In this document: one piece after another, positions 2,293-24,689 of the stretch | Position numbering within the stretch: the stretch's first letter is position 1 | How the letters are laid out: every line of letters begins with the position of its first letter | NCBI GenBank assembly: GCA_021157815.1 | Contig: JAGGVT010000048.1 | Location: 1 to 25,016 of the forward strand | DNA from: a bacterium | Lineage (GTDB): Bacteria; JAJVIF01; JAGGVT01 | Direction: 5' to 3' | Length of the DNA stretch: 25,016 nt | Notes under the pieces: model-generated | The model's input: the letters and a program-made list of their open reading frames with translations, nothing else | What the model was told of the DNA's origin: nothing | The model's database searches: none | Position numbers and translations under genes: made by a program

Positions 2293-3006
2293 ATGGCTGG
2301 AAATATCAAAAAAGCTAACCCCCCAAACGAATCCGCACTGAAAAAACGCGTTAAATCGCTTATTAAAAATCTCGATGAATTCTATCCTGTGTTCAAACCG
2401 AAAAAACGCTATGACCCGCTTGATGAACTTGTACTGACAATCCTCTCGCAGAACACAAACGACAATAATTCATTCGAAGGTTATAAAAGGCTTAAAAGCA
2501 GGTTCCCGACGTGGGATAAAGTAGCACGGGCGAATCCCAACACAATTGAGAAAGCGATCAGTATCGCGGGACTTGCTCCGACCAAGACTAAATATATCAA
2601 GGGTGTTCTGGATGGCATCGGCGCGGATAATCAAGCGAAAAATCGATTAGAAAAAGGTTCGCCATATCATCTGAATCATCTAAAAGAAATGACCCTTGAG
2701 AAATCTTTGGATTACCTGACATCGTTCAAAGGTGTCGGGCAGAAAACCGCCGCTTGTGTACTGGCATTTTCTCTGGATATGCCGTCCTTTCCAATCGATA
2801 CACATGTGCGTCGGATTCTTGTCAGGCACGGGATAATTCCCGCGAATATGACCGCTGAAAATGCGCATCATGTGATGTACCGTCTTACAATTCCTGATGA
2901 GCGTTATCGATTCCACATGAGTTTGATTCGATATGGCCGCGACATTTGCCACGCCCGTAATCCTGAATGTGACAAATGCGTGATTAAGCGAAATTGCGAA
3001 TATTGA
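2293..3006 (+). CDS. nth: Endonuclease III, DNA glycosylase/AP lyase
   Basis: The 237-residue protein excises oxidised pyrimidines and cleaves AP sites in base-excision repair. The helix-hairpin-helix (TSFKGVGQKTAACVL, ~143-157) carries catalytic Lys151, and PIDTHVRRI supplies catalytic Asp169. Four cysteines at 219, 226, 229 and 235 (spacing C-X6-C-X2-C-X5-C) form the 4Fe-4S cluster. The motif LSQNTND replaces the LSAQATD of the E. coli enzyme, a known variation. The N-terminus has a basic extension of about 15 residues. GC content rises from here onward relative to the upstream cassette, which suggests this is native chromosome. The start has no strong ribosome site and sits 13 bases after the DUF2283 stop. 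Confidence 0.92.
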   Translation: MAGNIKKANPPNESALKKRVKSLIKNLDEFYPVFKPKKRYDPLDELVLTILSQNTNDNNSFEGYKRLKSRFPTWDKVARANPNTIEKAISIAGLAPTKTKYIKGVLDGIGADNQAKNRLEKGSPYHLNHLKEMTLEKSLDYLTSFKGVGQKTAACVLAFSLDMPSFPIDTHVRRILVRHGIIPANMTAENAHHVMYRLTIPDERYRFHMSLIRYGRDICHARNPECDKCVIKRNCEY

Positions 3007-3031
3007 ATAACCTCTAACCAACAATATATGG

Positions 3032-3037
3032 TATAAT
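3032..3037 (+). promoter_or_regulatory. Possible -10 box (TATAAT)
   Basis: A perfect TATAAT lies in the 65-base gap before the methyltransferase gene, about 34 bases ahead of its ATG. No good -35 is present at 16-18 bases; TTGAAT at 3003-3008 is too far (23 bases). The match may be chance in an AT-rich gap. Confidence 0.35.
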
Positions 3038-3071
3038 AAATGCGATTTATTTTACGTTTTATTCCAAAACC

Positions 3072-5741
3072 ATGGGTAATTCACTCGAAACAAATGCCCT
3101 GAATCTCTGTGCATCCATCGCGCACGGATTCGCTTCCCATCCGTCAAATAAAATCGATCTCGATAACACTGATAATCTGCATCAGACATCGCTCAGAACG
3201 CTTTTTATAATCCTCTTGTCGCTGTACCTTGAGGAAAATGGATTCCTCCCCGATGATACTGATTTCCGCAATGACACCGGAATATTCACTCTTCGCAAGG
3301 AACTGGCAAATAATCCGCGTAAATCAGGCGGGAAAAAGCTCAGCATTATCAAGCGTATTCGACACTTGATGGAACAGATTTATTCCCCTGATTTGGCGTA
3401 CGCTCCATTCAAAGCGAGGCTGTTTGACCCTGATAACCCTGCCAACCGGAATATTGCAAAGTGGAAATTTTATGATGGCGAGATAACGAATTCACTGAAA
3501 CAGATTTTCTCTATCTGGGCGCATCCGGGGACAAGCTTGATGTCATCCAATCCGCCCGGCATTTCAGAATTGATTGGCATATATACGTTTCTGCTCGATT
3601 ACACACCGCGCGTTACAGATTACGATGTTGTCCTTTTGAACAACGGAAAGCGAATAATCGCGCTCTCAGAGGCTCATCCCGGGGATATCCGTCGGGGACA
3701 CGTGCATGAAAAGGGCAGCGTTATTTATGAATATGCCAAACGAAAATCGCGTAAAAGCGGAACTGTCTATACACCCGATGAAATAGTGAATCGAATTGTA
3801 AAGCGAACTCTTGATCCGCTAATCGGCAGCACCGATAGAAAAAGACCCTTGAGAATTATCGATCCATCCTGCGGAACAGGTCGTTTTCTTTCCGGTGCGG
3901 TCGATTATCTGATTGGGCATAATAACAGGGCAAACGGCGTTAACGCTCGAAATGCCGAGAATGAAAGACAGATAATTTCTGACTCGATTTACGGTGTCGA
4001 TCACGATAAACTCGCCATTGAACTTGCGGAAATCCCGCTAATGCTCAGAACGCACAGCCGCGACAATCCGGCGCCTAATCTTGAAGCAAATATCATCGCG
4101 GCTGATACATTAAAAGGCATCGACTCGCATTTTATTCGCCGATTGATTCTAGGCAATGGGCGGATAGATGACAGCGATGCCGACGAATCGCAGTACACGT
4201 TTGATGAAATCGACTGGCAGTCTGTTTGGAAAACCGTAATTGCCCAGAACAAAAAAGGCGCTCTTGCCGCGCAGTTCGAGATTTTTATTGATTACCTGAG
4301 CGGTAATAACGAAAACTTCAAAACAGTGTCTGATGAGTTTCACAATAAACTGCGTAAACTAACCAGCGGTGATAATAAACCTGTCGAATCGAAAGGCTGC
4401 GGTTTTCATCCTGAGGTATTTTTTCCATCGCTTTATTTCACAACCGCGGGAGAGATGCTTTCCGATAGCGGTTTCGATGCTGTAATCGGCAATCCTCCCT
4501 ATGGCGACATTCTCGATACGGCATCCAAGAGGCTTCTGGAAAACCTCGGATATAAATCAGGCGGCGGAGGCAACAACGACATCTTTCGTTTCTTTGTTGA
4601 ACGCGGATTAAACCTGCTTCGGCGGGGCGGAATGCTCGGATTCATCCTGCCAAATACGTTCCTGAAAGGGCGTAAATATCGAAACTTCAGAAAGAGAATT
4701 CTTGAACTTAGTTATCCTGAGGAGATTCTCGATTTCAATCATCAAAAAGTATTCCAGCGTGATGTCTTTACATCGCTTTTGTTTTTACGGAAAAAACCCG
4801 CAAAAAAATCACAACCGCGATTTCTAACAAGCCTTGATGGTTCACTCGATTATCTTGAACAGGAAGCGTTTGACCCATCGGGAAACGTCGATGATTCCTG
4901 GCTTCCAACGGGTGAACTATACCAGCGGCTCAATTCTGACAAGCGTTACATGCGCATTGACCCGTTTTTCACGCAAATCGGCGATGTCGGAATCAACTAT
5001 CAGCGACGGTCTGTCGGGTGGAGCGAAAGAACCAAAAGCCGTATCGCTGATGTTATTTTCTATGAGGGCAAAAAAGAGCATCCTGACGACAAGGAGTTTC
5101 TCAAGGGAGAGGATGTCGAACGGTTCAGGATTAATCCCAAATCAAAACGATGGCTCAGGCATGACTGGCAAGCGCATATTCAGGACAGCGAAGTTGTAAA
5201 TGTTAATTATGAATGGGCGAATCGGCCTGTCAAAATACTTTCGCGCCAGACAGGAGATTCACTAATCGCCGCGATTGACACAAGCTGCATGCTGACCGGA
5301 CGTTCGCTGCATACATCAGTGGTACGCGACATCGCCTACTCACCTTACTACATTATCGCCCTCATGAATTCCGATGTTTTAACCAGGGTTTACAGGGAAT
5401 TGACTCGTGAAACAGGCCGTCCGCAGGCGCAGGTTAAGCTCTCATTCCTCAGGAAAATCCCGATACGGCGAATCAACTTCACCTTGAATGAAAGCGAACG
5501 TGAGAAGATGTTGAACAAATCGATTAAGAGCATTAACGAAAATCCGGACAACCTTCCCAATGCTGTTAAGGATTCGCTTGAACATCACACTGAGGATATA
5601 GCTCACGATTTGATAGCTTGCTCATCCCGGCGGATAGAGCATCTGCTGGGGTCAAACGGCTCGAATGGAACATCCACTGATTTGGAAAAGTGGCGTAACG
5701 CTCTGAATATATCTATTGATATGCTGTATGAGATAAACTGA
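3072..5741 (+). CDS. Eco57I-like adenine-N6 DNA methyltransferase, nuclease domain not seen
   Basis: 889 residues. Motif I (AdoMet binding) is DPSCGTG at 264-270 and motif IV (catalysis) is NPPY at 474-477, marking an N6-adenine methyltransferase. RKSGTVYTPDEIV (227-239) is the usual lead-in of Eco57I/type IIG enzymes. The C-terminal part (~600-889) resembles the TaqI-type target-recognition region, e.g. FLKGEDVERF and TGRPQAQVKLSFLRKIPI. Type IIG enzymes usually begin with a PD-(D/E)XK nuclease; here the protein starts almost directly with the helical linker-like segment LRTLFIILLSLYLEENGFLP (42-61), and I see no D...E-X-K motif before it. It may be an orphan methyltransferase, a trimmed type IIG enzyme or a BREX PglX-like protein; no other BREX genes are here. 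The start lacks a clear ribosome site. Confidence 0.82.
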   Translation: MGNSLETNALNLCASIAHGFASHPSNKIDLDNTDNLHQTSLRTLFIILLSLYLEENGFLPDDTDFRNDTGIFTLRKELANNPRKSGGKKLSIIKRIRHLMEQIYSPDLAYAPFKARLFDPDNPANRNIAKWKFYDGEITNSLKQIFSIWAHPGTSLMSSNPPGISELIGIYTFLLDYTPRVTDYDVVLLNNGKRIIALSEAHPGDIRRGHVHEKGSVIYEYAKRKSRKSGTVYTPDEIVNRIVKRTLDPLIGSTDRKRPLRIIDPSCGTGRFLSGAVDYLIGHNNRANGVNARNAENERQIISDSIYGVDHDKLAIELAEIPLMLRTHSRDNPAPNLEANIIAADTLKGIDSHFIRRLILGNGRIDDSDADESQYTFDEIDWQSVWKTVIAQNKKGALAAQFEIFIDYLSGNNENFKTVSDEFHNKLRKLTSGDNKPVESKGCGFHPEVFFPSLYFTTAGEMLSDSGFDAVIGNPPYGDILDTASKRLLENLGYKSGGGGNNDIFRFFVERGLNLLRRGGMLGFILPNTFLKGRKYRNFRKRILELSYPEEILDFNHQKVFQRDVFTSLLFLRKKPAKKSQPRFLTSLDGSLDYLEQEAFDPSGNVDDSWLPTGELYQRLNSDKRYMRIDPFFTQIGDVGINYQRRSVGWSERTKSRIADVIFYEGKKEHPDDKEFLKGEDVERFRINPKSKRWLRHDWQAHIQDSEVVNVNYEWANRPVKILSRQTGDSLIAAIDTSCMLTGRSLHTSVVRDIAYSPYYIIALMNSDVLTRVYRELTRETGRPQAQVKLSFLRKIPIRRINFTLNESEREKMLNKSIKSINENPDNLPNAVKDSLEHHTEDIAHDLIACSSRRIEHLLGSNGSNGTSTDLEKWRNALNISIDMLYEIN

Positions 5742-6260: not shown

Positions 6261-9200
6261 CTACTTCCGTTTAAACGGTCTTTTAATTCCGCTTTTCATG
6301 GAACTCGTACTTTCCTTAATAACACCGCTGAGAGTCTTCGCGCGCTTTTTCGCGAGTTCCATTCCCTGCTGCGCTTGCTTGTGATTGGGACTAAGTTCAA
6401 GCGCGCGGGCGAAATGATTCATCGCCTGCCCATATAGATTCTGCTTGAAATAGAACTGCCCAAGCGCTGTCCATGGTTCCGGATTCTCCATCCCGAGCTG
6501 GCAGGCGTAGAAATACTCCTCCTCGGCATCATCGATTTTACCCTTCGCGTAGTAAATATCGCCAAGTTTGATATGCCCATCGACAAAGTTCGGGAACAGC
6601 GCGAGCGCTTTTAGGATAAACGAATTCGCCATGTCAACAGCGCCCTTGCCAAGATATGCCAGCGCAAGCTGATAGTTCACGCTGAAAGCATCCGGGGAGA
6701 TATCATAAGCTTTGTTGAATTCATTGATTGCCTGGTCATGCAGCCCGTTTTCGTAGTACGCAATGCCTTTTTGCAGATAATGATGAATAACAGGCGCGGC
6801 GTGGAATCGGTGCGCTTTGGGCATCTGAGCCGTGATTTCACCGAATTGAACGATGACCGTTGACGCTCCTGCAATTTCCTCTCTCTTGCCTTTGAACCGA
6901 TTTGCAGCAAGGCCGATTATCCGCTCGCACGATTCCTGCACATCCTGTGTGGATAAGACTGTGTTGCGGATTTCCAAATCAGCCAGAACGCGGGACAGAT
7001 TCCCGGTTCCAAGAACAAGAATATCGCCAAGCCTGAGATGGCGTTCCGTTGTGTCGATTTTTATCGTCATCTCCCTGCCGAGCATTCGCTTGTCCTCGGG
7101 TTTTCTGAGAAATGTTCTAATGCTGTGCCCCCTGAAAAGATAAGCGAACGCGGCACCGACTCGCCCGAGATAGAGGCGATTCCTGGTAATCAGGCCGAGT
7201 ATTATCTCAGCGCCGAATTTGCCCAGCTGGTTAAGCCTGAACGCCTCCTGGTTAATCGCGCCGTTCGCCCGATTGATTGCCTCATTTATCAGCGCCAGCG
7301 GGTCCTCATGCAGAGGCAGATCCAGTAATCTTGATGGCGAGAATATTTTTTCTATTTCCTCGATTGCGCGATTCTGCGCGAGAGCCGAGTACTCGGGATT
7401 TCCAATTCCGGACACTATCGCGATAACTCCCCTTATTCCGCTCGATGTCGCGGGAAGGCGGTTTGCAAACACGTGGCGAACATCCTTTTCACCCTCGATT
7501 TCGCTTCTGAAGGAGCTTGAGCCAAGAAGGAAATTCAGGGGCGCTTCCGTTTCATCCCCGCCTGACCGGCTTGCCAGATAATCGTCAAGATCATCTATCA
7601 ATTCCTGCAAATCCGGGTACCGGCTCATCATGTCCTTGTCAATGCACCTTGCCAGAATTCGTTTCAGGTTCGGATGAATGTCCTCATCTTTCAGCAGTTC
7701 CTGAGGCTCGGCGAAAACATGCTTGTTGATTATTTCATGCGGCTCGCCGGTGATTAAATCATGGCCTGTCAAAATGAAATACAGAATCAGGGCAAGCGAA
7801 TAGATATCCGATGGTGCTTCTTTCTTTCCAAGTCCGGTGATATGCTCCGGCGGCAGATAGGACGAGTTGTTCTGGTCATGCGGCGATGTGTAAAGGAAAA
7901 CTCTCTCGTAACCCGCAATTTTTACCGTCAATACAGGTGATTCCAGAACGAATATATTATCCGGATTGAGCGAACCGTAATAATTTCTTCCCTCATCATA
8001 TATGTGCTTAAGCGCCTCAGTTATTTGTTTTATCAGTTCTATCGCGGTTTCCTCATCAAGGAGAGGAGTATTCGCGACAAATTCCCTGAGTGTCAGTTCG
8101 CGCAGTTCAGTAACGAAAAAGAACGCGCCTTTGTCGTGGCCATGTTCCAGCACTCGAAGAATATTAGGATGATTATATTTCGAAATATCCTTGACTGCTT
8201 TATTGAATATATCCTCCATCTCTTTCGTGCGTGTGAATCTATAGAACCAGATCATAACAGGCGTCTCGGTTTGCGTATGAAGTCCACGATAAAGCAGCGG
8301 CTGTCCGCCATACAGGGGAATACGCTCTTCAAGAATATATTTGCCCTTGATTTTGGTTCCGGTTTCGATGAGTTTCAACCCGCCGGCGGCTTCGCTGTCG
8401 CCGGTCAGTTGCACTATATCCGCGAGAAACGCCGTGTAATCCGGGTATCTATCCTCAGGATTCTTCTCCAGCGCCTTTATCATTATGTCATGGAACACCA
8501 TCGGGATATTCTGGTTGTTTACTATCTCCTCCTTGGGATCCCAGTTAAGATGCTTGTCCATGACATCCTGTGGGATTTTGCCCTTGAAAAGATCCGTGCC
8601 TGTAACCAGTTTGTAAAGAAGTGTGGTAAGAGCGTAGATATCAGCAGGGGGGCCTATTTCTCCCTCATCGGTAATTATTTCAGGCGCCGAATAATGATAG
8701 GAACTAAGCGGCAAACCGAATTCATCTTGGATAAACCTTGATGTTTCCTCCAGCCTGAAATCAGTGAGGAAAATATCCTCGCCTTGTGGATTAATCAGGA
8801 TATGTTCCGGTTTCAATTGCTGATGCGCTTTAAGAGTACCCTTGCGATGGAGATATTCGAGTATCGCGGTCGTTCGCCTGATAATTCTCAGCGCTTGTTC
8901 AGGAGTCAGCTGTGGCTCATCCGCAAGAATGTTCGCAAGCGATGTCGGCACGTGGTCAAAAACGAGATAGTATTTGTCATCATGCCATCCGCTTGCAATC
9001 AGATTTACAACCTGCGGATGCCGAATCTGCGTACGAGCGAACATGTCGTTGTTCATCGCTCGCACAAATTCCTCTTTCTGCGATATCTGTTTATCGAACA
9101 GTTTCAGTGTGTATGTATTTTCCCTGCCCATCTCAAGCACTTTGAAAGTCGATGCGAAATGGCCATGGCCAAGGTCCTCGATTACCTCCCATTTTGAATC

Positions 9201-10046
9201 CAGAATTGTCCCGACAAGTGAGTCGGCTGGAGCCTTTTTCCTGTATGACGCCGCGCTGAGAGTGTAACTTACAGCATCCTTAAGTTCCTCAAGATTCGGA
9301 TACCGTTTTGTTGGGTTTTTCTCAAGGCAGTTCAGGATTATCTCCTGCACCATTGATGGAATTTGGGCGTAATACTCAACATGTTTGCGCGGCGAGACAT
9401 AAACCTGATGATACCGGACATCCTCATCCTCACCCTGGAAAATCGGATATCCCACAAGCATCTGATAGAGCAGGATTCCAATCTGGTAGATATCGGTATG
9501 TACGCCTGTATCGCCGATGCCATGTATCTGCTCCGGCGCCATGTAACGGGCATCCTCCCATTCGGCGCGTTTCGGCTGCTCCAGCATTAACATTCCCTGC
9601 GCCATGTACCAGTCAGCGATTTTGGGTATCTCATCCTCGGAACTCATAAGTATGTTATTGCTGCGAAGGTCAAGATGAGGTTCCAGCTCATTTTCATAAC
9701 CGTATATAAGGCCGTCGATTATCTTCATCAGCATCGTAAGAGCCGGAACAATGTCGAGTGTTTCATGACGCTTGATATATTCGGTCAGGTTAATATCGAG
9801 AATTTCGGTCGCTATATACAACCGGTCTGAATGAGTGCCGATTTCCTTGATTGTTACTATGTTTTCGTGGTTAAGGTATTTGAGTTTCGTGGCGACTGAA
9901 TCGACCTTATCGGTGAAAACATCACTGGACGCAAACGGGTCCTTGAAGAGTTTCATGATGCAGTCAATCTTGGTGGTTTCATCGGTGCCCCGATATATTA
10001 ACGCCGCCGGTGAACTACGAAGTCTTTCCCTTGGTGCATAAGGCAT
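6261..10046 (-). CDS. Tandem kinase/pseudokinase + PP2C-like + TPR signalling protein
   Basis: 1261 residues. Three Ser/Thr-kinase-like domains are followed by a PP2C-like domain and TPRs. Domain 1 (~10-260): Lys32, HLDLRSNN with Asp126 and Asn131, DW in place of DFG (Asp145), APE present, but no glycine loop; it may be active. Domain 2 (~285-545): intact LGHGHFAS loop, Lys315, DFR, but HQQLKPEH, so the catalytic Asp is Gln410. Domain 3 (~568-825): Lys replaced (VMIWF), YGSLNPDN lacks Asp, no DFG; a clear pseudokinase. PP2C-like region (~838-1070): fold motifs such as GRVGAAFAYLFRG and LRLGDILVLGTG are kept, but the metal ligands are changed (SGIG for DGMG, GAST for DN-T). About four TPRs follow (~1085-1235). 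No membrane segment. GAGG (complement at 10054-10057) supports the start. Probably a cytosolic scaffold or regulator; its partner is unknown. Confidence 0.85.
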   Translation of the reverse strand: MPYAPRERLRSSPAALIYRGTDETTKIDCIMKLFKDPFASSDVFTDKVDSVATKLKYLNHENIVTIKEIGTHSDRLYIATEILDINLTEYIKRHETLDIVPALTMLMKIIDGLIYGYENELEPHLDLRSNNILMSSEDEIPKIADWYMAQGMLMLEQPKRAEWEDARYMAPEQIHGIGDTGVHTDIYQIGILLYQMLVGYPIFQGEDEDVRYHQVYVSPRKHVEYYAQIPSMVQEIILNCLEKNPTKRYPNLEELKDAVSYTLSAASYRKKAPADSLVGTILDSKWEVIEDLGHGHFASTFKVLEMGRENTYTLKLFDKQISQKEEFVRAMNNDMFARTQIRHPQVVNLIASGWHDDKYYLVFDHVPTSLANILADEPQLTPEQALRIIRRTTAILEYLHRKGTLKAHQQLKPEHILINPQGEDIFLTDFRLEETSRFIQDEFGLPLSSYHYSAPEIITDEGEIGPPADIYALTTLLYKLVTGTDLFKGKIPQDVMDKHLNWDPKEEIVNNQNIPMVFHDIMIKALEKNPEDRYPDYTAFLADIVQLTGDSEAAGGLKLIETGTKIKGKYILEERIPLYGGQPLLYRGLHTQTETPVMIWFYRFTRTKEMEDIFNKAVKDISKYNHPNILRVLEHGHDKGAFFFVTELRELTLREFVANTPLLDEETAIELIKQITEALKHIYDEGRNYYGSLNPDNIFVLESPVLTVKIAGYERVFLYTSPHDQNNSSYLPPEHITGLGKKEAPSDIYSLALILYFILTGHDLITGEPHEIINKHVFAEPQELLKDEDIHPNLKRILARCIDKDMMSRYPDLQELIDDLDDYLASRSGGDETEAPLNFLLGSSSFRSEIEGEKDVRHVFANRLPATSSGIRGVIAIVSGIGNPEYSALAQNRAIEEIEKIFSPSRLLDLPLHEDPLALINEAINRANGAINQEAFRLNQLGKFGAEIILGLITRNRLYLGRVGAAFAYLFRGHSIRTFLRKPEDKRMLGREMTIKIDTTERHLRLGDILVLGTGNLSRVLADLEIRNTVLSTQDVQESCERIIGLAANRFKGKREEIAGASTVIVQFGEITAQMPKAHRFHAAPVIHHYLQKGIAYYENGLHDQAINEFNKAYDISPDAFSVNYQLALAYLGKGAVDMANSFILKALALFPNFVDGHIKLGDIYYAKGKIDDAEEEYFYACQLGMENPEPWTALGQFYFKQNLYGQAMNHFARALELSPNHKQAQQGMELAKKRAKTLSGVIKESTSSMKSGIKRPFKRK

Positions 10047-14210: not shown

Positions 14211-17200
14211 ATGTCATTCCCAAAATTCATTAAGATTGCGCTTACGTGCATCGCGGCAGTCTGCATTATTACATCCCTTGTTACATGCAAGGAAAAACCA
14301 TCGACCTTTGGCAGCTACAGCTCAACCGCAGTGGCAATCGCATCCGTATATCCAACAGGCGAGGGTTCTGTAACAACAAATATCACAGTTGATTTCACGC
14401 ACAATATGGTTCAGGAGGATCAGGTCGGAATTGAACTGCAGAACGATACGATTACATTCACGCCTGAGATTATGGGGAAGTGCAGATGGGTCGCGCCGAA
14501 TAAACTTCGATTTCACCCGACGAATTCCCTTATGCCGGCGACAGGCTACGATGCTGAGGTTTCGCCTAAATTGAAATCACTCAACGGACTGCCGCTGAGG
14601 GGGCAGCGTAAGTTCAGTTTCTACACAACGCCGCTAAAAGTAAAAACCTCTTATGGAAATGGGACTTTCTCAAAATCAACATCTTCGAATCTCACAACCG
14701 AATGGAAGGTCACTTTCAACCATAAAGTTGATCCTGTCCAGTTGAAACAACATCTAAAATTCTCTCCCGATTGGAATTCAAGGTATAACCTGAAATACAC
14801 TATCAGCCCTGAAACGCCCGACAGGGAGTTTACAGTTATATGCACCTTGCCGGACAGGACACGGTTGAAGTGTAAGCGCATAAAGGTTTATATCTCAAAA
14901 CAACTGCGTGGCATTGATGGGCCTCTTGGTTTGAAATACGATTATAAATCATGGATTGGCATTGACGCTGACCTTGTGGTGAAGCAGATAAAATCGCAGC
15001 ACCTGGAAAATTTGCTCTATATCAACATCGAATTTTCCACAAAGGTTGATCCTGAAATCGCAGAAGCATATATAACGGTTGAGCCTGAAATACCTTTCAA
15101 AATTGAATCCTACAGCCGTTACCTGAATCTCAAGGGCGATTTCAAGGCAGGGCAATGGTATCTGGTTAAAATCAAAAGCGGCCTTGCCGCCAATGGCGGC
15201 ACGCGTCTCGAGAAGGATTTTGTCCAGAATGTAAAAATCGGCGACATCAAACCCTACATCAATTTCCAGCACGATGGAGTCTATCTTCCAGCAACGAATT
15301 CACAGCATATCGCGGTGGAAAGCGTAAACGTTGACAAGATAAACATTCAGATTGCCAAAATCTATAAAAACAACATTGTTCAGTTTCTGAGAAGTACCCA
15401 TCGCTATGACTCATGGTACTCAATCGGGACAACAGGAAAGATGGTACATGACGAGGAGATTGAAATCGACTCGGTGAAAAACGAAACGGTAATCACTCCG
15501 ATTGATATCGGGCATTTCTATGATGAGGGAGTACGCGGCATTTTTCAGGTTACCGCAAGGTCAGCTAAGGATTACTGGGTTCGAAAAACGAACATTGCCA
15601 TGATTACCGACATTGGCATCGTTGCGAGCCTCGCTGACGATGACCTTTTTGTATGGGCCAATTCGCTTTCAACTCTGATGCCGATTAAGAACGCAGAAAT
15701 AACGCTCTACAGCGTCAACAACCAGGTGATAGCATCCGGTCGCACCAATAACAAAGGCGCATTGTTGATTAAAAATCTTGAATCGCTGAAAAAGGAAGAA
15801 GAGTATTACCCGTTTCTGATTACAGCTTCATATCGCGATGATTTCTCGTTCATGCGTTTTGAATCCTGCCGCCTGCCGCTTGTATCCCACGATATCGGTG
15901 GACGACCTTTGCTGGCAAAAGGATACGAGGCTTTTCTGTTTGCCGACCGTGATGTTTTCCGACCGAATGACAAGGCGCATATCGCTGCCGTGGTGCGTGG
16001 CGTGAATGTCAGAAATCCTGAATCATTTCCCGTGAAACTGAATATTATCGACCCCAGGGATAAATCATTCGATGTAATCCTCAAAACCCTCGATAAAAGC
16101 GGCATTATCGATTTCGAATTAATCATTCCCGATTACGCAATGACAGGGAACTATATCGCTTCGCTTTTAATCGCGGATGAGGAAATCGGAAGGATGGAAT
16201 TCTTTGTCGAGGATTTCATTCCGGATAAAACAAAAGTTGAAATTCAAACGGACAAGCAATCGTACCGTACGGGCGAGAATATCAAAATTGATGTCGCGGG
16301 GAATTACCTGTTCGGCCCTCCCGCCGCTAACCAGAGAGTCCAATGCAAACTGCTTGTTAAATCATCTCCGTTCAGTTGTTTGAAATTCGCGGATTATACA
16401 TTCGGCGATGCTGACAGGAAGTTCGAGGAGATTGAAATCGAACTCGGCGACGGGATACTTGATGAGAACGGTAAATACACATTTGAAGGCAAAATTCCGG
16501 ACAACATCTCTCCATCATCAGCTCTCAAATGCACAATCGCTGTTACCTTGAATGAAGAGGGCGGGCGGGCTGTAAGCGCATACACCGATGTTATTGTCCA
16601 TCCCTGGGCTTTCTATATTGGATTGAGGCCGAAGTCTGATGATTACGCTGAAATCGGGAAGACCTACGATGTCGATTTTGTGTATATCAATCCCGACTGC
16701 ACAGAAAAAGAACCTGAAATGCTGGAAGCGAAAATCTACAGGGTCGTTTATAATTCCGTTCGCAGTCGTTATGGCTATGGTTATAGCAGATACACATCCG
16801 AAAGAAGCGATGAACTCCTGCACACAATCCAAATAGACCCTGCGACAACGCGCATAATTAGTTTCAAACCCGAGAAGTACGGCAGATATAAAATTCTTTT
16901 GAGCACACCTGATGGCGGCACATCCAGCGCGATTATGTTTTACGCGTCCGGCTGGGGATACGCTCCGTGGTCGATGGAGAATCCCGGCAGGATTGAAATC
17001 GAAGTTGAAAAAGAGATTTATAAATCAGGCGACAAAGCGAAACTGCTTGTTAAATCCCCATTCCCGGGTAAACTTCTGCTGCTTGTCCAGCGTGAAAAGG
17101 TTTTTGATTACAGGATTGTCAATATGCCTGAAAACACGGCTACAATCACCATTCCGGTCAGGTCGGAATACCTGCCCAATGTCTATGTTTCAGCGACGGT

Positions 17201-19601
17201 TATCAAATCGCTCGATGAATATGACGGTGAATCGCCCATGAGGGCATTTGGAATCACGCCGCTGATGGTGAATGCATCCGGCAGGAAACTGGGCATTGAG
17301 ATTTCATCGCCGGAGGAAATCCGCCCCGGCAAAAAACTTGATTTGAATATAAAAGTAAATAACAACAAAGGAGTGTCTCATATTGCAATTGCCGCTGTTG
17401 ATGAGGGTATCCTGCAGCTTACAGGCTATCCGACACCCGACCCCTTTGAATTCTTCTATGGCAAAAAGCGCCTGAGCGCGGAGTATTTCGATATCTTCTC
17501 ATTCGTATTTCCTGAACTCGACAAGTTTAAAACCCAACCCGCCGGCGACAGTTATGATGAACAAAGAAAGAAACACCTGACACCTGTTGGAATAAAGCGT
17601 GTCGAACCAATATCTCTCTGGTCGGGAATTGTTAAAACCGATTCCAAAGGCAACGCGAAAGTGAGTTTTGACATTCCCGAATTCCAGGGGCAGCTTAGAA
17701 TCATGGCTGTCGCTGTTAATTCCTCGCGCATGGGAAATATGGAGAAGGATATTTTTGTTCGCGACAAACTGATTCTCAAACCGACACTGCCCAGGTTTAT
17801 TTCATCGCTGGATGATTTCATCCTGCCGGTCATGGTTTTCAACAACACCGCTCAAGATGGCGATTTCGAGGTGAAACTCGATATCGACGGCGATGTGTCC
17901 GTTCTGAATAACCATTCACAAAGCGTGCATATCGCGGATGGGGAATCGAAAGCAATTAGTTACAGGTTGAAAGTTGGAAATTCAATCGGGAAGGCATCCT
18001 TTACAATCTCAGCGTCAGGCGCGGATGAAACCACCAAAACGACAATCAACGTACCGATCAGGCCATCATCGCCGGTAATCACAAAAACAGGAAGCGCTGC
18101 CATTACCGAGTCTGAGCCGTTGGAAATTGATCTGCCCGATGGATTTCTCAATGGCACTGAAAATGCGAAATTGATTATTTCATCGTTCCCGCAGGTTCAA
18201 TTCACAGCAAGTTTGCAGTATCTTCTGAAATACCCGCATGGATGCCTTGAGCAGACAACATCGCGGGTCTTTCCACTTTTATATTTCGATGAGATCGCCA
18301 GAAACGCCGAGCCTGAACTTTTCGAGAAAAACAGCGCATGGTTCTTTGTCGAGAGAGGAATCAACAAGATAATCACAAAGCAGCGGTATGACGGCTCATT
18401 TACATACTGGTCAAGAGGAAATCGCGTTTGCTCATGGAGTTCAATCTATGCCACGCACTTTCTAGTCGAGGCAAGAATAGCCGGATATCATGTCCCCGAC
18501 GGTGTTTATGATGACATGCTCAGATACCTTAAAAACTATGTAAAGGAGCAATTGAACGAGGATTATCTTTGGCAAAGGCAGGTGTACGCGTGCTATGTTC
18601 TCGCGATTGCCGGCATGCCGCCTAAATCCAGCATGGATTATTTCAGAGAGAACAAACTTGGGAAATTGCCGCTGTCATCGCAGTACCAGCTGGCACAGTG
18701 TTACATGATAGCTGGCGATGAAAAGACCGCAAAGAAACTGCTGCCGGATGACATCCATCCGGTAACGGTTGAGCGGGAGACTGGTCGCAATTTCAGATCA
18801 TCGACACGTGAAAACGCTATTATGCTTAACGCCCTGCATGAAATATCGCCGGACCATCCGGGCATCCCCATTCTGGTTAAAGAGTTAAGCGATTCTGTTA
18901 ATTTTGGCAGATGGTACACAACGCAGGAAAACGCTTTCGCGCTGATTGCGATAGGCAAGGTAATGAAATCGCAGGAGGACGCGAATTATACCGGCACGAT
19001 TTTTATCGACAGGGAAATGCACAGTGAATTTAATACTGATGGATTGAAAATCGAGGGCAGTGACCTTGTCGGCAAGAATGTGAAAATCAGCATAAACGGC
19101 ACAGGTCGATGCTATCTCTACTGGCAGGCGTGGGGCGTTCCAGAAAAACCGGTCTTTAATGAATATGACAAGGGTATCAGTGTTAGGAGAAGATATCTGG
19201 ACATCGACGGCAATCCGCTTGATTACACGGCTGTTAAACGCGGTAACCTGGTCGTTGCTGAAATAATAATGCAGGCGTTGAACAAGAATCTCGATAATGT
19301 GATCATCGACGACATGCTGCCGGCTGGATTTGAAATTGAAAATCCACGCCTTAAGTCGAGAGCGCAAATCGGCTGGGTGCAGAAAAAGAAGAATGACTTC
19401 TATCCTGATTACATGGATATTCGTGATGACCGCCTTCTTTTATACGCATCGCTGCGAAGGCACAAACCGTCAACGTTCTATTACACGCTTCGCGCGGTTA
19501 CATGCGGCCATTTCGCGCTTCCGCCAGTATCCGCGGAATGCATGTATGACCCGACATACACCAGCGTTCAATCATCGGGAATGATTACGATTGTTGATTA
19601 G
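14211..19601 (+). CDS. Bacterial alpha-2-macroglobulin lipoprotein (YfhM-like)
   Basis: 1796 residues, slightly longer than E. coli YfhM (~1650). Residues 1-26 are a lipoprotein signal with box LVTC (Cys26); Thr just before Cys is unusual but tolerated. The next residues are K-E, not Asp, so outer-membrane sorting is plausible if the E. coli +2 rule holds here. Many beta-rich macroglobulin repeats follow. The conserved A2M entry segment (PISLWSGIVKTDSKGNAKVSF) starts near residue 1131. The thioester site GCLEQ lies at 1344-1348 with Cys1345 and Gln1348, as in protease-trapping A2Ms, and an alpha-alpha toroid follows. It is thought to trap invading proteases by covalent capture in the periplasm. 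GAGG at 14198-14201 supports the start. The next gene is pbpC, the usual partner. Confidence 0.93.
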   Translation: MSFPKFIKIALTCIAAVCIITSLVTCKEKPSTFGSYSSTAVAIASVYPTGEGSVTTNITVDFTHNMVQEDQVGIELQNDTITFTPEIMGKCRWVAPNKLRFHPTNSLMPATGYDAEVSPKLKSLNGLPLRGQRKFSFYTTPLKVKTSYGNGTFSKSTSSNLTTEWKVTFNHKVDPVQLKQHLKFSPDWNSRYNLKYTISPETPDREFTVICTLPDRTRLKCKRIKVYISKQLRGIDGPLGLKYDYKSWIGIDADLVVKQIKSQHLENLLYINIEFSTKVDPEIAEAYITVEPEIPFKIESYSRYLNLKGDFKAGQWYLVKIKSGLAANGGTRLEKDFVQNVKIGDIKPYINFQHDGVYLPATNSQHIAVESVNVDKINIQIAKIYKNNIVQFLRSTHRYDSWYSIGTTGKMVHDEEIEIDSVKNETVITPIDIGHFYDEGVRGIFQVTARSAKDYWVRKTNIAMITDIGIVASLADDDLFVWANSLSTLMPIKNAEITLYSVNNQVIASGRTNNKGALLIKNLESLKKEEEYYPFLITASYRDDFSFMRFESCRLPLVSHDIGGRPLLAKGYEAFLFADRDVFRPNDKAHIAAVVRGVNVRNPESFPVKLNIIDPRDKSFDVILKTLDKSGIIDFELIIPDYAMTGNYIASLLIADEEIGRMEFFVEDFIPDKTKVEIQTDKQSYRTGENIKIDVAGNYLFGPPAANQRVQCKLLVKSSPFSCLKFADYTFGDADRKFEEIEIELGDGILDENGKYTFEGKIPDNISPSSALKCTIAVTLNEEGGRAVSAYTDVIVHPWAFYIGLRPKSDDYAEIGKTYDVDFVYINPDCTEKEPEMLEAKIYRVVYNSVRSRYGYGYSRYTSERSDELLHTIQIDPATTRIISFKPEKYGRYKILLSTPDGGTSSAIMFYASGWGYAPWSMENPGRIEIEVEKEIYKSGDKAKLLVKSPFPGKLLLLVQREKVFDYRIVNMPENTATITIPVRSEYLPNVYVSATVIKSLDEYDGESPMRAFGITPLMVNASGRKLGIEISSPEEIRPGKKLDLNIKVNNNKGVSHIAIAAVDEGILQLTGYPTPDPFEFFYGKKRLSAEYFDIFSFVFPELDKFKTQPAGDSYDEQRKKHLTPVGIKRVEPISLWSGIVKTDSKGNAKVSFDIPEFQGQLRIMAVAVNSSRMGNMEKDIFVRDKLILKPTLPRFISSLDDFILPVMVFNNTAQDGDFEVKLDIDGDVSVLNNHSQSVHIADGESKAISYRLKVGNSIGKASFTISASGADETTKTTINVPIRPSSPVITKTGSAAITESEPLEIDLPDGFLNGTENAKLIISSFPQVQFTASLQYLLKYPHGCLEQTTSRVFPLLYFDEIARNAEPELFEKNSAWFFVERGINKIITKQRYDGSFTYWSRGNRVCSWSSIYATHFLVEARIAGYHVPDGVYDDMLRYLKNYVKEQLNEDYLWQRQVYACYVLAIAGMPPKSSMDYFRENKLGKLPLSSQYQLAQCYMIAGDEKTAKKLLPDDIHPVTVERETGRNFRSSTRENAIMLNALHEISPDHPGIPILVKELSDSVNFGRWYTTQENAFALIAIGKVMKSQEDANYTGTIFIDREMHSEFNTDGLKIEGSDLVGKNVKISINGTGRCYLYWQAWGVPEKPVFNEYDKGISVRRRYLDIDGNPLDYTAVKRGNLVVAEIIMQALNKNLDNVIIDDMLPAGFEIENPRLKSRAQIGWVQKKKNDFYPDYMDIRDDRLLLYASLRRHKPSTFYYTLRAVTCGHFALPPVSAECMYDPTYTSVQSSGMITIVD

Positions 19602-19719
19602 TGATTAACAGAATAACCGAGCCCCGAACGTGAGTGAGGGGCAGGAAAAGTCGATGCATTTTATTAATATAGGGTAAAAGTCAAAATTGGCCACTGAAAT
19701 TATGATTCGCCAATTAACC

Positions 19720-19947
19720 CGTCATTCCCGCGAAAGCGGGAATCCATTTAAAAATGAGAGATACCAACTCTCCATAAAAGAAAAGTGGATCCCCGCTTTC
19801 GGGGCTGTTGAAAAAGGGCTGAATGTAAGGGGTAGGTCTCTGTGCCTACCCTAAATATTGGCATAAATACAGGGCAACCACGGAGAGTTGCCCCTACGGT
19901 CTGGGACAAAACGGGGTTTTTCAACAGCCCCTTTCGCGGGAATGACG
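19720..19947. repeat. Middle layer: REP-like CGTCATTCCCGCGAAAGCGGG inverted repeat, interrupted
   Basis: CGTCATTCCCGCGAAAGCGGGAATCCA (positions 19720-19746) pairs with a right arm that is split by an inserted element: TGGATCCCCGCTTTC (19786-19800) then GCGGGAATGACG (19936-19947). Joining the two parts restores the arm with one mismatch. Each arm is itself a small palindrome (CCCGCGAAAGCGGG). Confidence 0.75.
19801..19931. mobile_element. Inner layer: MITE-like element, TIR GGGGCTGTTGAAAAA
   Basis: 131 bp bounded by perfect 15-bp ends GGGGCTGTTGAAAAA / TTTTTCAACAGCCCC. TTTC at 19797-19800 and 19932-19935 is a probable target duplication. Inside are two hairpins: GGGTAGG..CCTACCC (19830-19851) and GGGCAAC..GTTGCCC (19872-19893). 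It has no coding capacity. Its ends match the element at 5827-6016. Confidence 0.78.
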
Positions 19948-20055
19948 GAATATCATCATTAGTCTGGCTTAGGAACAATTAAACGGTATCAGTCGCCAAT
20001 TATTACGACTTTCCCGACAGGCTCTAACGTTCGAGGCTCGGTTAAAAAAAGTAAA

Positions 20056-22389
20056 ATGAATCTGTTTAAAAAACATAAAGGAACAAATACTCACCAGTGG
20101 CTACGGCGACTCATCATCGCGTTGTTCCTGTTACCGCTAATCGCGTTTCTGATTCTCAATCTGCTCTACCCGCTTCCAATCGACAAACTCACACGCGATT
20201 CATCCACCGCTGTCTATTCAAAAAACGGTGAACTTCTAAGTTTGTATCTTTCCGATGATGACTTCTGGCGCATCAGGACTGAGATTGAGGACATTCCACA
20301 GTTTATGCAAAAAGCGTTAATCGAGTATGAGGATAAGTGGTTTTATTATCATCCCGGAGTCAATCCGGCATCGCTTGTAAGGGCGTTTGCGGCAAACATA
20401 AAATCCGGCAGGAAGGCATGCGGCGGTTCGACATTAACCATGCAGGTCGCGCGAATGATGGAACCGAAACCGCGGACATACAAATCCAAACTGGTTGAAA
20501 TATTCCGCGCATTTCAGATTGAATCGAGATACACCAAGAAAGAAATTCTTGCGATTTATTTCAATCTGGCGCCCTACGGCGGCAACATCGAGGGAATCGG
20601 CGCCGCGTCATATTTCTACTTTGGGAAATCATCTGCGGTACTGAGCAAAAGCGACTCGCTGGCACTTGTCGGGCTTCCGAATTCACCAAACCACCTTCGC
20701 CCGGATCTGCATTATGAGCAGGCTGTGCGTCATCGCGACAAAATCGCCAATTTGCTTAATCAAAAAGGATTAGTCTCAAACGAGGAATTGGCGGATATTA
20801 TTGCAGACACGATTCCTGAAAAGCGATTCCACGCGCCATCATCAGCGCCTCATTATTCAAGGCTGATAAAGCGGAAGTACCGTAATGATGCGAAGATCAA
20901 AACAACTCTCGATATGCCTGTCCAGCGAACCTGCGAGGATTTGCTTTCTGAGCATTTGTCGCCGCTTATGAAACGCGGCATTTCTAACGGCGCGGTTGTT
21001 GTTATCGAAAACAAAACCCGCGCTGTTCGGGCGATGGTCGGATCGAAGGACTTTTACGATTCAATTAACTGCGGGCAGGTAAACGGAGCGATATCCCCGC
21101 GCTCTCCGGGTTCAGCGCTTAAACCATTTGTATATGCTCTTGCTTTTAACGAGGGGCTTATCTCTCCAAGGACAATGCTGTCCGATGTGCCGATCAATTA
21201 TTCAGGTTATACGCCGTCAAACTACAGCGATAATCACCTTGGCAGCGTTTCCGCCGAGGATGCGTTGAAGTTTTCGTTAAATATTCCCGTAATCAATCTT
21301 CATTCCAAACTCGAAAACAGATTCTACAACCTGTTGAAATCGGGCGGAATCACAACTCTGACAAAACCGTATGAGCATTACGGACTGCCCCTTGCGCTTG
21401 GCGCGGGTGAAGTTACACTTCTGGAATTGACAAATTTATATTCAACTCTGGCAAGTGATGGGAGCTATCAGCCATACAGGCTCACCGAATCTCAAACGGA
21501 TGGCAATTCCAAACAATTATTTTCAGATGCCACATCATATATCATTACTGAAATACTGGCTGATATCAGGCGGCCTGACCTTCCAGATTGCTGGGAATCA
21601 TCGGTTAATCGCCCTAAAATTGCGGGGAAAACAGGGACATCATACGGCAACCGGGACGCATGGAGCATCGGCTATAATCCAGAATACACAATAGGAGTCT
21701 GGATTGGCAATTTCTCGGCAAGGGAATCTGATAACCTTGTCGGCGCTGAGGTAGCAGCGCCATTGCTTTTTGATATTTTCAATTCACTTAACGTTTCATC
21801 ATCCTGGTTTGCAAAACCGGAATCCATAGGCACACGCAAAGTCTGCTCAGTCAGCGGAATGCCGGTTAACGGCTATTGCCCCCACTCGGTAACTGAGATG
21901 TATATCCCGGGAATCTCGCCATCGGTGAAATGCAACATGCACAAACGATTTTATATCGATGATGAAACCGGCATGAGGCTAACGGTGGCAAATCGGCATG
22001 AACACAAGCATACGCAAAAGGTTTATGAAATCCTGCCACAGAAAATAGCATCATGGCGAAAACGGATGGGATATCCCGTCGATGAAATCCCGGCATTGCT
22101 GCAGGATTCCTCATTCCCTTCAAGCGAAAGCAATCCTGTGATTCTCTCTCCACAAAACACATCGTCTTTTGTGCTGCAGAAGTACGTTCCGGTGGAGCAT
22201 CAGCGGATTCTTCTGAAAGCATCGGTTTCAAACACCATTAAGCAATTGTTCTGGTTTGTTGATGGCGAGCTTTTAACAAAGTGCGCTCCTCATGATGATC
22301 AGTTCTATTATCCAACGCTGGGAAATCATAAAATCGCCTGCATGGACAACGAGGGCAATTCATCGACTGTGCAGATATCGATTAACTAA
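20056..22389 (+). CDS. pbpC: Penicillin-binding protein 1C (bifunctional glycosyltransferase/transpeptidase)
   Basis: 777 residues. A single membrane anchor lies at ~17-40. The GT51 glycosyltransferase (~55-230) has E92-D in YEDKWFYYHPG and GGSTLTMQVARM (123-134). The transpeptidase has SALK (Ser353, Lys356), SLN (407-409) and KTG (525-527). The C-terminal ~90 residues form the PBP1C-specific domain (from LSPQNTS). It builds and cross-links peptidoglycan from the periplasmic face. PBP1C genes commonly sit beside A2M genes, with the PBP proposed to repair the wall where the A2M traps proteases. The start at 20056 has a poor ribosome site. The gene lies just after a large repeat cluster that probably separates it from A2M read-through. 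Confidence 0.94.
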   Translation: MNLFKKHKGTNTHQWLRRLIIALFLLPLIAFLILNLLYPLPIDKLTRDSSTAVYSKNGELLSLYLSDDDFWRIRTEIEDIPQFMQKALIEYEDKWFYYHPGVNPASLVRAFAANIKSGRKACGGSTLTMQVARMMEPKPRTYKSKLVEIFRAFQIESRYTKKEILAIYFNLAPYGGNIEGIGAASYFYFGKSSAVLSKSDSLALVGLPNSPNHLRPDLHYEQAVRHRDKIANLLNQKGLVSNEELADIIADTIPEKRFHAPSSAPHYSRLIKRKYRNDAKIKTTLDMPVQRTCEDLLSEHLSPLMKRGISNGAVVVIENKTRAVRAMVGSKDFYDSINCGQVNGAISPRSPGSALKPFVYALAFNEGLISPRTMLSDVPINYSGYTPSNYSDNHLGSVSAEDALKFSLNIPVINLHSKLENRFYNLLKSGGITTLTKPYEHYGLPLALGAGEVTLLELTNLYSTLASDGSYQPYRLTESQTDGNSKQLFSDATSYIITEILADIRRPDLPDCWESSVNRPKIAGKTGTSYGNRDAWSIGYNPEYTIGVWIGNFSARESDNLVGAEVAAPLLFDIFNSLNVSSSWFAKPESIGTRKVCSVSGMPVNGYCPHSVTEMYIPGISPSVKCNMHKRFYIDDETGMRLTVANRHEHKHTQKVYEILPQKIASWRKRMGYPVDEIPALLQDSSFPSSESNPVILSPQNTSSFVLQKYVPVEHQRILLKASVSNTIKQLFWFVDGELLTKCAPHDDQFYYPTLGNHKIACMDNEGNSSTVQISIN

Positions 22390-22606: not shown

Positions 22607-23122
22607 TCACTTTTCAGGCAGAAGTTCACCCATCAGGCGTCTTGGATTTTCCGGTGGAGATTCCGCCGGATAACCGATTGGCAATATCGCAACAGGCACA
22701 ATGCCATCTCGTAAATTCAGAATCCTTGCAACTGCAGGCGAGTCAAACGCTCCGACCCAGCATGAGCCAAGCCCGAGATCAGCCGCCGCGAGATGCGCAT
22801 GGCTTACCGCGACAGCTGTATCCTGGTGAACATACAAACTCGATCCACGTACGCCATAGGTTTTTTCCGTTCGCGCAGCATCCTCGATAAATACAATTAC
22901 AACCGGCGCTGTGGCAATGAATCCCTGCCCATAAGCCGCGGTTACAAGTTCGTTTTTAACCTGGATGTCCCTGATGATTCTGAATTCGTATGGTTGAAGA
23001 TTTCCTGCTGATGGCGCAATCCGCGCGGCTTCAAGTATTTTATCAACCAAACTGTCATCAACAGGCTCATCAGTATAAAGACGAATGGAGCGTCTCTTTT
23101 GTATCAATTCAAAAAATTCCAC
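22607..23122 (-). CDS. Nitroreductase-family FMN oxidoreductase
   Basis: GTG at 23122 is chosen because GGAGG (complement 23130-23134) sits 7 bases upstream and the protein then begins EFFELIQKRRSIR, the normal family N-terminus; this gives 171 residues. An in-frame ATG 90 bases further upstream would overlap the neighbouring gene and add a non-conserved stretch. FMN-binding signs are RRSIR (~10-14), PSAGNLQPYEF (~37-47) and the DLGLGSCWVGAF segment (~115-126). These enzymes reduce nitro- or quinone-type compounds with NAD(P)H as cytosolic dimers; the substrate is unknown. It follows the propeller-like gene by 49 bases on the same strand and may be co-transcribed. Confidence 0.85.
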   Translation of the reverse strand: MEFFELIQKRRSIRLYTDEPVDDSLVDKILEAARIAPSAGNLQPYEFRIIRDIQVKNELVTAAYGQGFIATAPVVIVFIEDAARTEKTYGVRGSSLYVHQDTAVAVSHAHLAAADLGLGSCWVGAFDSPAVARILNLRDGIVPVAILPIGYPAESPPENPRRLMGELLPEK

Positions 23123-23129
23123 GATAGGG

Positions 23130-23134
23130 CCTCC
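23130..23134 (-). promoter_or_regulatory. Ribosome binding site (GGAGG) deciding a GTG start
   Basis: Read on the minus strand, GGAGG lies 7 bases before GTG at 23122-23120. It outweighs the longer in-frame ATG start because that one has no comparable site. Confidence 0.65.
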
Positions 23135-23171
23135 AAAAAAAAAGTAATTCATGTAATTATACACAAAAGCA

Positions 23172-24689
23172 TCACCGAATAAAAAACGCTTCGCTTGCGT
23201 GGCTGGGTTCACCTACAAGAACCCGACTTTCTCCCGTCTCCATGTCCAGATAATACAGCCTGTTTGATTTTACCCCGACCTTTTTCCCCTGAACGATAAT
23301 CGTCTCCCAGCTCAGATTTGTTCCCTTGTAGCGGCAGCAGTTGTCATCGCCGCACTGGAAATACATAATGCCTTTGCCGTCATCGCTTATCCCCATGAAA
23401 AATCCCTTTATCGGCTTGGAAACAAAATCGGAAGTAAAATCAATTATTCTAAACGCCTGGTAACCCATTGTGTTTGACGCCAATATTGCTATATCCTCAA
23501 ATCCGTCCGGGAAATACAGCTGGTGATACAAAGGCCTTTCTGAATATGCCTCATCCGGAAGGTCAGGCACGTTAATCCATCTGAGCGATGTTGACTCAAT
23601 ATCGCCGTATGCCACAATCAGGTTTTCAGAGCGGAGGTTTATTTCATCAGCGTTTAAACCAGTGGAATTTTCGAGTGTGATTTTAGTTTTAAGATTATCC
23701 AATACAAATGAAACCACAGCGAAACGTTTCAATCCGAAACTGACAGGTCCCTCGGAGAAATCATCGTTTACAGGCAGATGCTCGGGGATAAGCCCCATAC
23801 CGCGCATCGGAAGATTGATAAAACTGTCCAGGCGATTAATCCTGCTGCCAACAAGGTCGTACAGGATTAGGTCATCACCATTGAGAATATACAGGAGATT
23901 ATCCGATGCGAACGACGCCTGATGGATTTCACAAAACGGCAGTTCATATCCGAAGAACGGAGATGTTTCATCATCGTCATTATCGCTGGAGATTTCATAA
24001 ACCATGATTTTCATTCCGCTCGATTCAGTGGAATGAACGGGCACGAAAAATCGCCTTCCTGACGGGCTGAATGAGGGGAAATCGCATCCGGCTATACAGG
24101 TTATCGATGTCTCATCTGGGGTTTCGACCCATTTGCGCAAGTCGATAAAAACAACCGTTGCATTATCCGATGACATATCCCGCAAAACCATAGGCGGATT
24201 GCCGTTTCCCGATTCAATCTCAACGCCATTGGGGAATGTAGCAACCGCAAACCTGCCGTCGGGAGAAAAGCCGTATTCATTAAAAGTTCCGGATGGGAAT
24301 TTGCCGTTACGCTCATCGCCGTTTGGAGTTCGTGTGAGCTGGATTGTTTTCGCATTGGTAAAATCCATAAGGAGAAGTTCGTTTGTGAAATCCTTATGAT
24401 TGAATTTACGCCCAAGCGCAAAGCTGCCATCGGCGCATACTCTGACTGACAGCAAGCCATGCCCACCGGGAATGTTTATCAAATTTCTTTCAAACGTTTC
24501 AGTGTTGAATCGATAGAAGCCGTAATCTGTCTTGCCAGCTGAATTATAGATATTAATGTATGCGATTATTTCATGCGGATGCGCATCCTCGTCAGATAAA
24601 GCAACTTGAGTGGAGAGGGTGAAAATCAACGCCAGAAGTATGGCTAATGTATTTATCAAACCGCGATTCACAGGTATATGGTAATCCAT
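23172..24689 (-). CDS. Secreted propeller-like (TolB/PD40-type) protein of unknown function
   Basis: 505 residues. An N-terminal signal peptide is likely: basic RG then hydrophobic INTLAILLALIFTLSTQVAL (11-31), with cleavage near residue 31. Two PD40-like words, FSPDGRFAVA (141-150) and FSPSGRRFFV (207-216), point to a beta-propeller. Other regions are beta-rich with repeated LLYILNGDDL- and LYYLDMETG-like strands. A Cys cluster CGDDNCC lies near 446-452. It may be periplasmic or exported, reporting or binding some state. I do not recognise a family. The ribosome site is weak (GAAAAGA). It heads a probable two-gene unit with the nitroreductase. Confidence 0.7.
   Translation of the reverse strand: MDYHIPVNRGLINTLAILLALIFTLSTQVALSDEDAHPHEIIAYINIYNSAGKTDYGFYRFNTETFERNLINIPGGHGLLSVRVCADGSFALGRKFNHKDFTNELLLMDFTNAKTIQLTRTPNGDERNGKFPSGTFNEYGFSPDGRFAVATFPNGVEIESGNGNPPMVLRDMSSDNATVVFIDLRKWVETPDETSITCIAGCDFPSFSPSGRRFFVPVHSTESSGMKIMVYEISSDNDDDETSPFFGYELPFCEIHQASFASDNLLYILNGDDLILYDLVGSRINRLDSFINLPMRGMGLIPEHLPVNDDFSEGPVSFGLKRFAVVSFVLDNLKTKITLENSTGLNADEINLRSENLIVAYGDIESTSLRWINVPDLPDEAYSERPLYHQLYFPDGFEDIAILASNTMGYQAFRIIDFTSDFVSKPIKGFFMGISDDGKGIMYFQCGDDNCCRYKGTNLSWETIIVQGKKVGVKSNRLYYLDMETGESRVLVGEPSHASEAFFIR

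Follow-up and report, generated by a model that had tools for sequence, protein, structure and literature searches.

What role could be played by a bacterial protein that joins kinase and phosphatase folds in one chain when most of the catalytic residues of both appear to be missing? The question is raised by a gene in the 25,016-nucleotide stretch of DNA analysed here (the window). It is a single open reading frame without internal stops, which encodes a protein of 1261 aa carrying three Pkinase domains, a PP2C fold and TPRs. No strongly hydrophobic segment was found along the 1261 residues from the hydrophobicity of the sequence, so the protein is predicted to be soluble and is probably cytosolic. 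The features discussed below are the following, with G001, G002 and G003 denoting the three other genomes examined from the same phylum:

6261..10046, minus strand: whole gene, tandem pseudokinase, pseudo-PP2C and TPR protein (1261 aa, ATG start at 10046)
9297..9998, minus strand: kinase-like domain 1 (aa 17-250; Pkinase E=7.5e-30)
9669..9671, minus strand: codon of Asp126, which occupies the HRD-Asp site of domain 1 (the residue is shared with G002; G001 and G003 have Ala)
8445..9188, minus strand: kinase-like domain 2 (aa 287-534; Pkinase E=9.3e-33)
7617..8291, minus strand: kinase-like domain 3 (aa 586-810; Pkinase E=8.4e-20)
6792..7544, minus strand: pseudo-PP2C domain (aa 835-1085; HMM against PDB 2e-11, Foldseek against PstP 3e-11)
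6342..6782, minus strand: TPR array of four to five repeats (aa 1089-1235; TPR_2 2e-16 and others)
6264..6341, minus strand: basic C-terminal tail (aa 1236-1261, ending in IKRPFKRK; low-confidence structure)

Domain searches and structure prediction supported both kinds of fold. When the three kinase-like segments were run separately against PF00069 (cut-off 31.7 bits), domains 1 to 3 scored 104.6, 114.2 and 71.7 bits, respectively, which assigns all of them to the Hanks-type fold. For the kinase part, AlphaFold2 gave a low-confidence model (mean pLDDT 61) that is uninformative on domain arrangement; bacterial Hanks kinases were still its top Foldseek matches. As a single sequence, residues 835-1085 fell below the Pfam PP2C cut-offs and scored 47 bits with the NCBIfam model NF033484 (Stp1/IreP PP2C), under that model's cut-off. 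A profile searched against PDB reached 1e-6 with five sequences and approximately 2e-11 to 6e-11 with 11 homologues, the latter matching Staphylococcus aureus Stp1 (E=1.9e-11) and also tPphA. The AlphaFold2 model of this region, built from a four-sequence alignment (mean pLDDT 75), matched PstP in Foldseek (E 3e-11, TM 0.72 normalised by target) and again tPphA, and sequence and structure searches thus both identify a PP2C (PPM) fold. The TPRs scored 59 bits with TPR_2 against a cut-off of 27 and were modelled as helical pairs with pLDDT mostly between 80 and 96. The preliminary description, which had proposed three tandem kinase-like domains together with TPRs in one chain, is borne out by these Pfam matches.

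Relatives were found in two phyla. Each of the four genomes examined from the window's phylum carries an orthologue, either full-length or truncated by a contig end, at 46-48% identity (48% in G002, an assembly of 4 contigs that is 99% complete, and 46% in G001; the G003 copy breaks off at a contig end). In a second phylum, 7 of 10 genomes encode a related protein made of two kinase-like domains, the pseudo-PP2C domain and TPRs; domain 1 is absent there, the N-terminal kinase domain is hardly recognisable, and the C-terminal one keeps Lys, Asn and the DFG-Asp and lacks the HRD-Asp in all seven. No member was detected in a third phylum when two broad genome samples, which overlap and number 385 and 384, were searched; in these, family members matched with E values of 1e-78 or better and the next matches, ordinary PP2Cs, with 1e-23 or worse. 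The window's genome holds no paralogue of the whole protein, and a search of named genomes with the whole protein gave nothing; the PP2C profile recovered three named MAGs, LacPavin SED3 (JAPKYR), 'Planctomycetota bacterium' CSMAG_1386 (DAOVJF) and SJ870 (JADZFO). Each kinase slot was monophyletic in the kinase tree (support 100/100). The tree gave no one-to-one pairing of kinase domains across the two phyla.

Catalytic residues were read from an alignment with HRD-containing kinases, and in no domain is the triad of an active Hanks-type Ser/Thr kinase (VAIK Lys, HRD Asp, DFG Asp) conserved across the orthologues. In domain 3, Lys is replaced by Trp600, HRD by YGS, and the DFG-Asp is lost. Conservation in this domain is highest in TETPVMIWF and in YLPPEHITG, the latter covering APE/P+1, the catalytic loop being 15% invariant. 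The earlier view of this domain as nearly devoid of catalytic residues holds for Lys, HRD and DFG and needs correction at the HRDxxxxN position, where this copy, and this copy only, has Asn. In domain 2 the GxGxF loop, Lys315 and the DFG-Asp429 are kept in all four orthologues, the HRD-Asp is Gln410 here, as had been noted, and Gln or Ala across the four, the Mg-binding Asn has become His (His415 here), and the alphaC Glu is Asp in 4/4. Because the Gly-loop, Lys and DFG-Asp are retained, nucleotide binding by domain 2 is possible. In none of the orthologues does domain 2 or domain 3 have the HRD-Asp used in catalysis.

In agreement with the preliminary description, domain 1 has Lys32, Asp126, Asn131 and Asp145 but no glycine loop. 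JAK-type pseudokinase domains regulate a kinase in cis, and by analogy domain 1 might still be a (weakly) active kinase regulated by the other kinase domains, the pseudo-PP2C domain and the TPRs, as the presence of every triad residue here and in G002 and the Pkinase E value of 7.5e-30 would allow. We consider this unlikely, given that no orthologue has the Gly-loop or the alphaC Glu (the latter position, assigned relative to the following His, is Val or Ile, and Val here), that DFG reads DWY, that Ala stands at the HRD-Asp site in G001 and G003, proteins under strong constraint in other respects, and that the second phylum does without the domain. With neither Gly-loop nor alphaC Glu in any orthologue, and with Ala at the site of Asp126 in two of the four, domain 1 is probably catalytically dead too. 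The description of two dead kinase domains is accurate for domains 2 and 3 and is better extended to all three.

Loss of phosphotransfer need not mean loss of all chemistry, and one of the pseudokinase domains might carry out another ATP-dependent reaction such as the AMPylation or glutamylation of SelO and SidJ, in which a lost HRD-Asp with kept Lys and DFG-Asp is a known pattern (PMC12599244). The selective retention of Gly-loop, Lys and DFG-Asp by domain 2 in 4/4 orthologues, and of Lys and DFG-Asp by the last kinase domain in 7/7 proteins of the second phylum, fits this proposal. Nevertheless, no SelO- or SidJ-like similarity appeared among the Pfam and NCBIfam matches and the adjoining pseudo-PP2C domain favours a binding role, which makes such a chemistry fairly improbable.

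In the phosphatase fold, the NxD, DGMGG, GDS, SDGL and DNxT motifs by which an active PP2C is recognised are lost in all 11 proteins, which agrees with the reported lack of metal-binding Asp residues. In the protein studied here DGMG reads SGIG, GDS reads GAA, SDGL reads TGNL and DNxT reads AGxS; at the NxD position the window's phylum has Arg and most of the second phylum Glu. In a tree with 21 active PP2Cs, the pseudo-PP2Cs of both phyla fell on one side of a branch with support 98/97, and because of this split they probably have a single origin and were inactive already in their common ancestor.

Gene neighbourhood gave little guidance to function: no neighbouring gene is common to the window's orthologues, hence no hint of an operon partner, and three loci of the second phylum have neighbours in common with each other. 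At L061-L063 of the second phylum (in G062-G064) a conserved protein, some 270 aa long, is encoded after the gene, and in G063 and G064 a protein of more than 520 aa, which by its sequence looks like an SLH-domain surface protein, also lies downstream. Elsewhere in the window, HATPase_c-like, DUF4325 STAS-like and PIN-domain proteins stand in a row (260-2071), and an HhH-GPD DNA glycosylase-like protein precedes an Eco57I/TaqI_C-type N6 adenine methylase (2293-5741), a gene pair resembling type IIG restriction enzymes. On the other side, a bacterial alpha-2-macroglobulin (1796 aa) lies beside penicillin-binding protein 1C (14211-22389), which is a known gene pairing, and a nitroreductase-like ORF (22607-23212) adjoins a 505-aa ORF (23172-24689, minus strand) without any Pfam or NCBIfam match.

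A role as a component of a kinase-containing defence system (BREX/PglW, MADS or PD-T4-6), set beside restriction-modification-like genes, could be suggested by the adjoining type IIG-like methylase and by the PD-T4-6, mad6 and PglW models listed by PADLOC, yet it is very improbable: these are generic kinase-domain matches, the NCBIfam scores are far below the cut-offs (MAD6, 248 bits against 460; PglW, 92.5 against 990), the methylase neighbourhood is not common to the orthologues, and presence in 4/4 and 7/10 genomes looks like that of a vertically kept housekeeping gene and not of mobile defence.

Conservation within the family was analysed at the level of selection. In the pairwise comparisons G001-G003 and G063-G064, pN was 0.06-0.14 and pS 0.52-0.78 in every domain, and dN/dS is about 0.02-0.11 wherever silent sites are unsaturated; against G002, the protein is 43-55% identical by domain, with roughly even conservation. 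Recent pseudogenisation or a sequencing or assembly artefact, which the many missing catalytic residues and the draft assembly of 221 contigs might suggest, is refuted by the single open frame, the orthologues in three other genomes (one of 4 contigs and 99% complete), a dN/dS far below 1 and identical motif losses in the second phylum. The inactive state, as read from its motifs, is maintained under purifying selection in 11 proteins of two phyla. The earlier judgement that the protein is mostly inactive is upheld, given that no homologue found here has its catalytic residues intact throughout and that both folds are supported.

All these data suggest, with a probability that we put at roughly 60%, that the protein is a non-catalytic, cytosolic scaffold, hub or switch in Ser/Thr phospho-signalling. 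A scaffold or allosteric sensor, as first suggested, is the most economical role because inactivity is conserved in 11 proteins under purifying selection; binding, partner and output are the inferred parts of that proposal. Since the folds have been kept under selection while their chemistry was lost, all four would have been retained as surfaces on which other kinases and phosphoproteins dock, and a further partner could be recruited by the TPR array. Domain 2, with its Gly-loop, Lys315 and DFG-Asp429 and no catalytic Asp, may bind nucleotide as a conformational switch, a property that the C-terminal pseudokinase of the second phylum might share through the equivalent Lys and DFG-Asp. Some observations weigh against a scaffold: no conserved gene neighbourhood points to a partner, the Lys, HRD-Asp, Asn and DFG-Asp of domain 1 here and in G002 make weak phosphotransfer conceivable, and several pseudokinases, SelO and SidJ among them, have other chemistries (PMC12599244).

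A candidate partner of the putative scaffold can be named in the window's phylum, whose genomes contain active-looking Hanks kinases. One of these (L106, at G000:C51:35718-36455) consists of an HRD-type Ser/Thr kinase with an FHA domain after it and then a hydrophobic segment, and its orthologues (L105, L106, L107 and L110; FHA E about 1e-9) occur once per genome in all four genomes. The pairing is a co-occurrence in four genomes of one phylum and may reflect simple vertical inheritance of both genes. A candidate with intact catalytic motifs and a single copy per genome makes the question testable. Regarding phosphatases, no Stp-type PP2C was found in this phylum, with PF13672 giving no match and NF033484 matching only the dead domain. 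A complete lack of PP2Cs was also considered and is refuted by the SpoIIE-type PP2Cs, with 6-8 matches per genome. In most genomes of the second phylum an Stp1-like PP2C, scoring up to 212 bits, is encoded by a gene of its own. Two fusion proteins of 593-603 aa (L077 in G212 and L079 in G072) combine zinc-ribbon-like Cys motifs with an intact PP2C domain and include a stretch that resembles a degenerate kinase by eye; an FRD-type kinase is encoded at the locus. A dedicated family of all-pseudoenzyme hubs that stands in for an Stp phosphatase by reading phosphorylation or shielding phosphosites could be proposed from a phylum with Hanks kinases and SpoIIE-type PP2Cs in which the Stp type goes undetected; we regard this extension as doubtful.

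Among known systems, S. aureus Stp1 and Mycobacterium tuberculosis PstP are the closest relatives of the pseudo-PP2C domain in fold and sequence, and differ from it in that active PP2Cs have the metal and phosphate motifs that are all lost here. The animal protein TAB1, a pseudophosphatase of PP2C fold, binds the kinase TAK1 and activates it. The likeness lies in a PP2C fold without phosphatase chemistry and a role in kinase signalling, and the TAB1 structures 2irm and 2pop were among the Foldseek matches of our model; however, TAB1 is eukaryotic, has no kinase domains and acts on a kinase that is a separate protein, and orthology is not implied.

Bacterial pseudokinases have been little studied. 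The families reviewed in PMC12599244 (including MviN/ActPs3, EssB/YukC, CP1 and DLHK) resemble our protein in having a Hanks-type fold from which catalytic residues have been lost; among them, EssB/YukC acts as a scaffold without catalysis, and CP1 and DLHK are soluble. They are unlike it in having a single pseudokinase domain linked to TM, COG3899 or helicase domains, and the text of that review holds no tandem array and no PP2C or TPR partner. CP1 is defined by a linked COG3899 ATPase and DLHK by a DEAD/DNA2 domain (PMC12599244), neither of which was found here in the Pfam and NCBIfam scans, and ActPs1-3, GLW and DYD have family-specific changes of catalytic motifs, mostly with a TM segment (PMC12599244); our protein has no TM segment, and its motifs differ from the ones that the review quotes. 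Kinase and PP2C folds in one chain are also known from fusions in Pseudomonas and Deinococcus (PMC1262709), in which the PP2C precedes the kinase, the parts are treated as enzymes and there are no tandem pseudokinases. Plant tandem kinase-pseudokinase proteins such as Yr15/WTK1 (PMC6170490) resemble it in their tandem kinase folds with degenerate members; these act in plant immunity, with one kinase and one pseudokinase domain and no PP2C. Neither a bacterial PP2C pseudophosphatase nor this all-pseudoenzyme combination was found described in the open-access literature, to which the search was confined. The initial statement that no protein of this layout had been described agrees with that literature, and the layout is not unique, as orthologues and a two-kinase form exist. 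Kinase and phosphatase folds that are inactive yet kept across two phyla offer a clean natural case for the non-catalytic functions of these folds. In comparison with these systems, the parts of the protein are of known kinds, and as a whole it would represent a pseudoenzyme scaffold of unusual composition, in a combination apparently new to the open-access literature.
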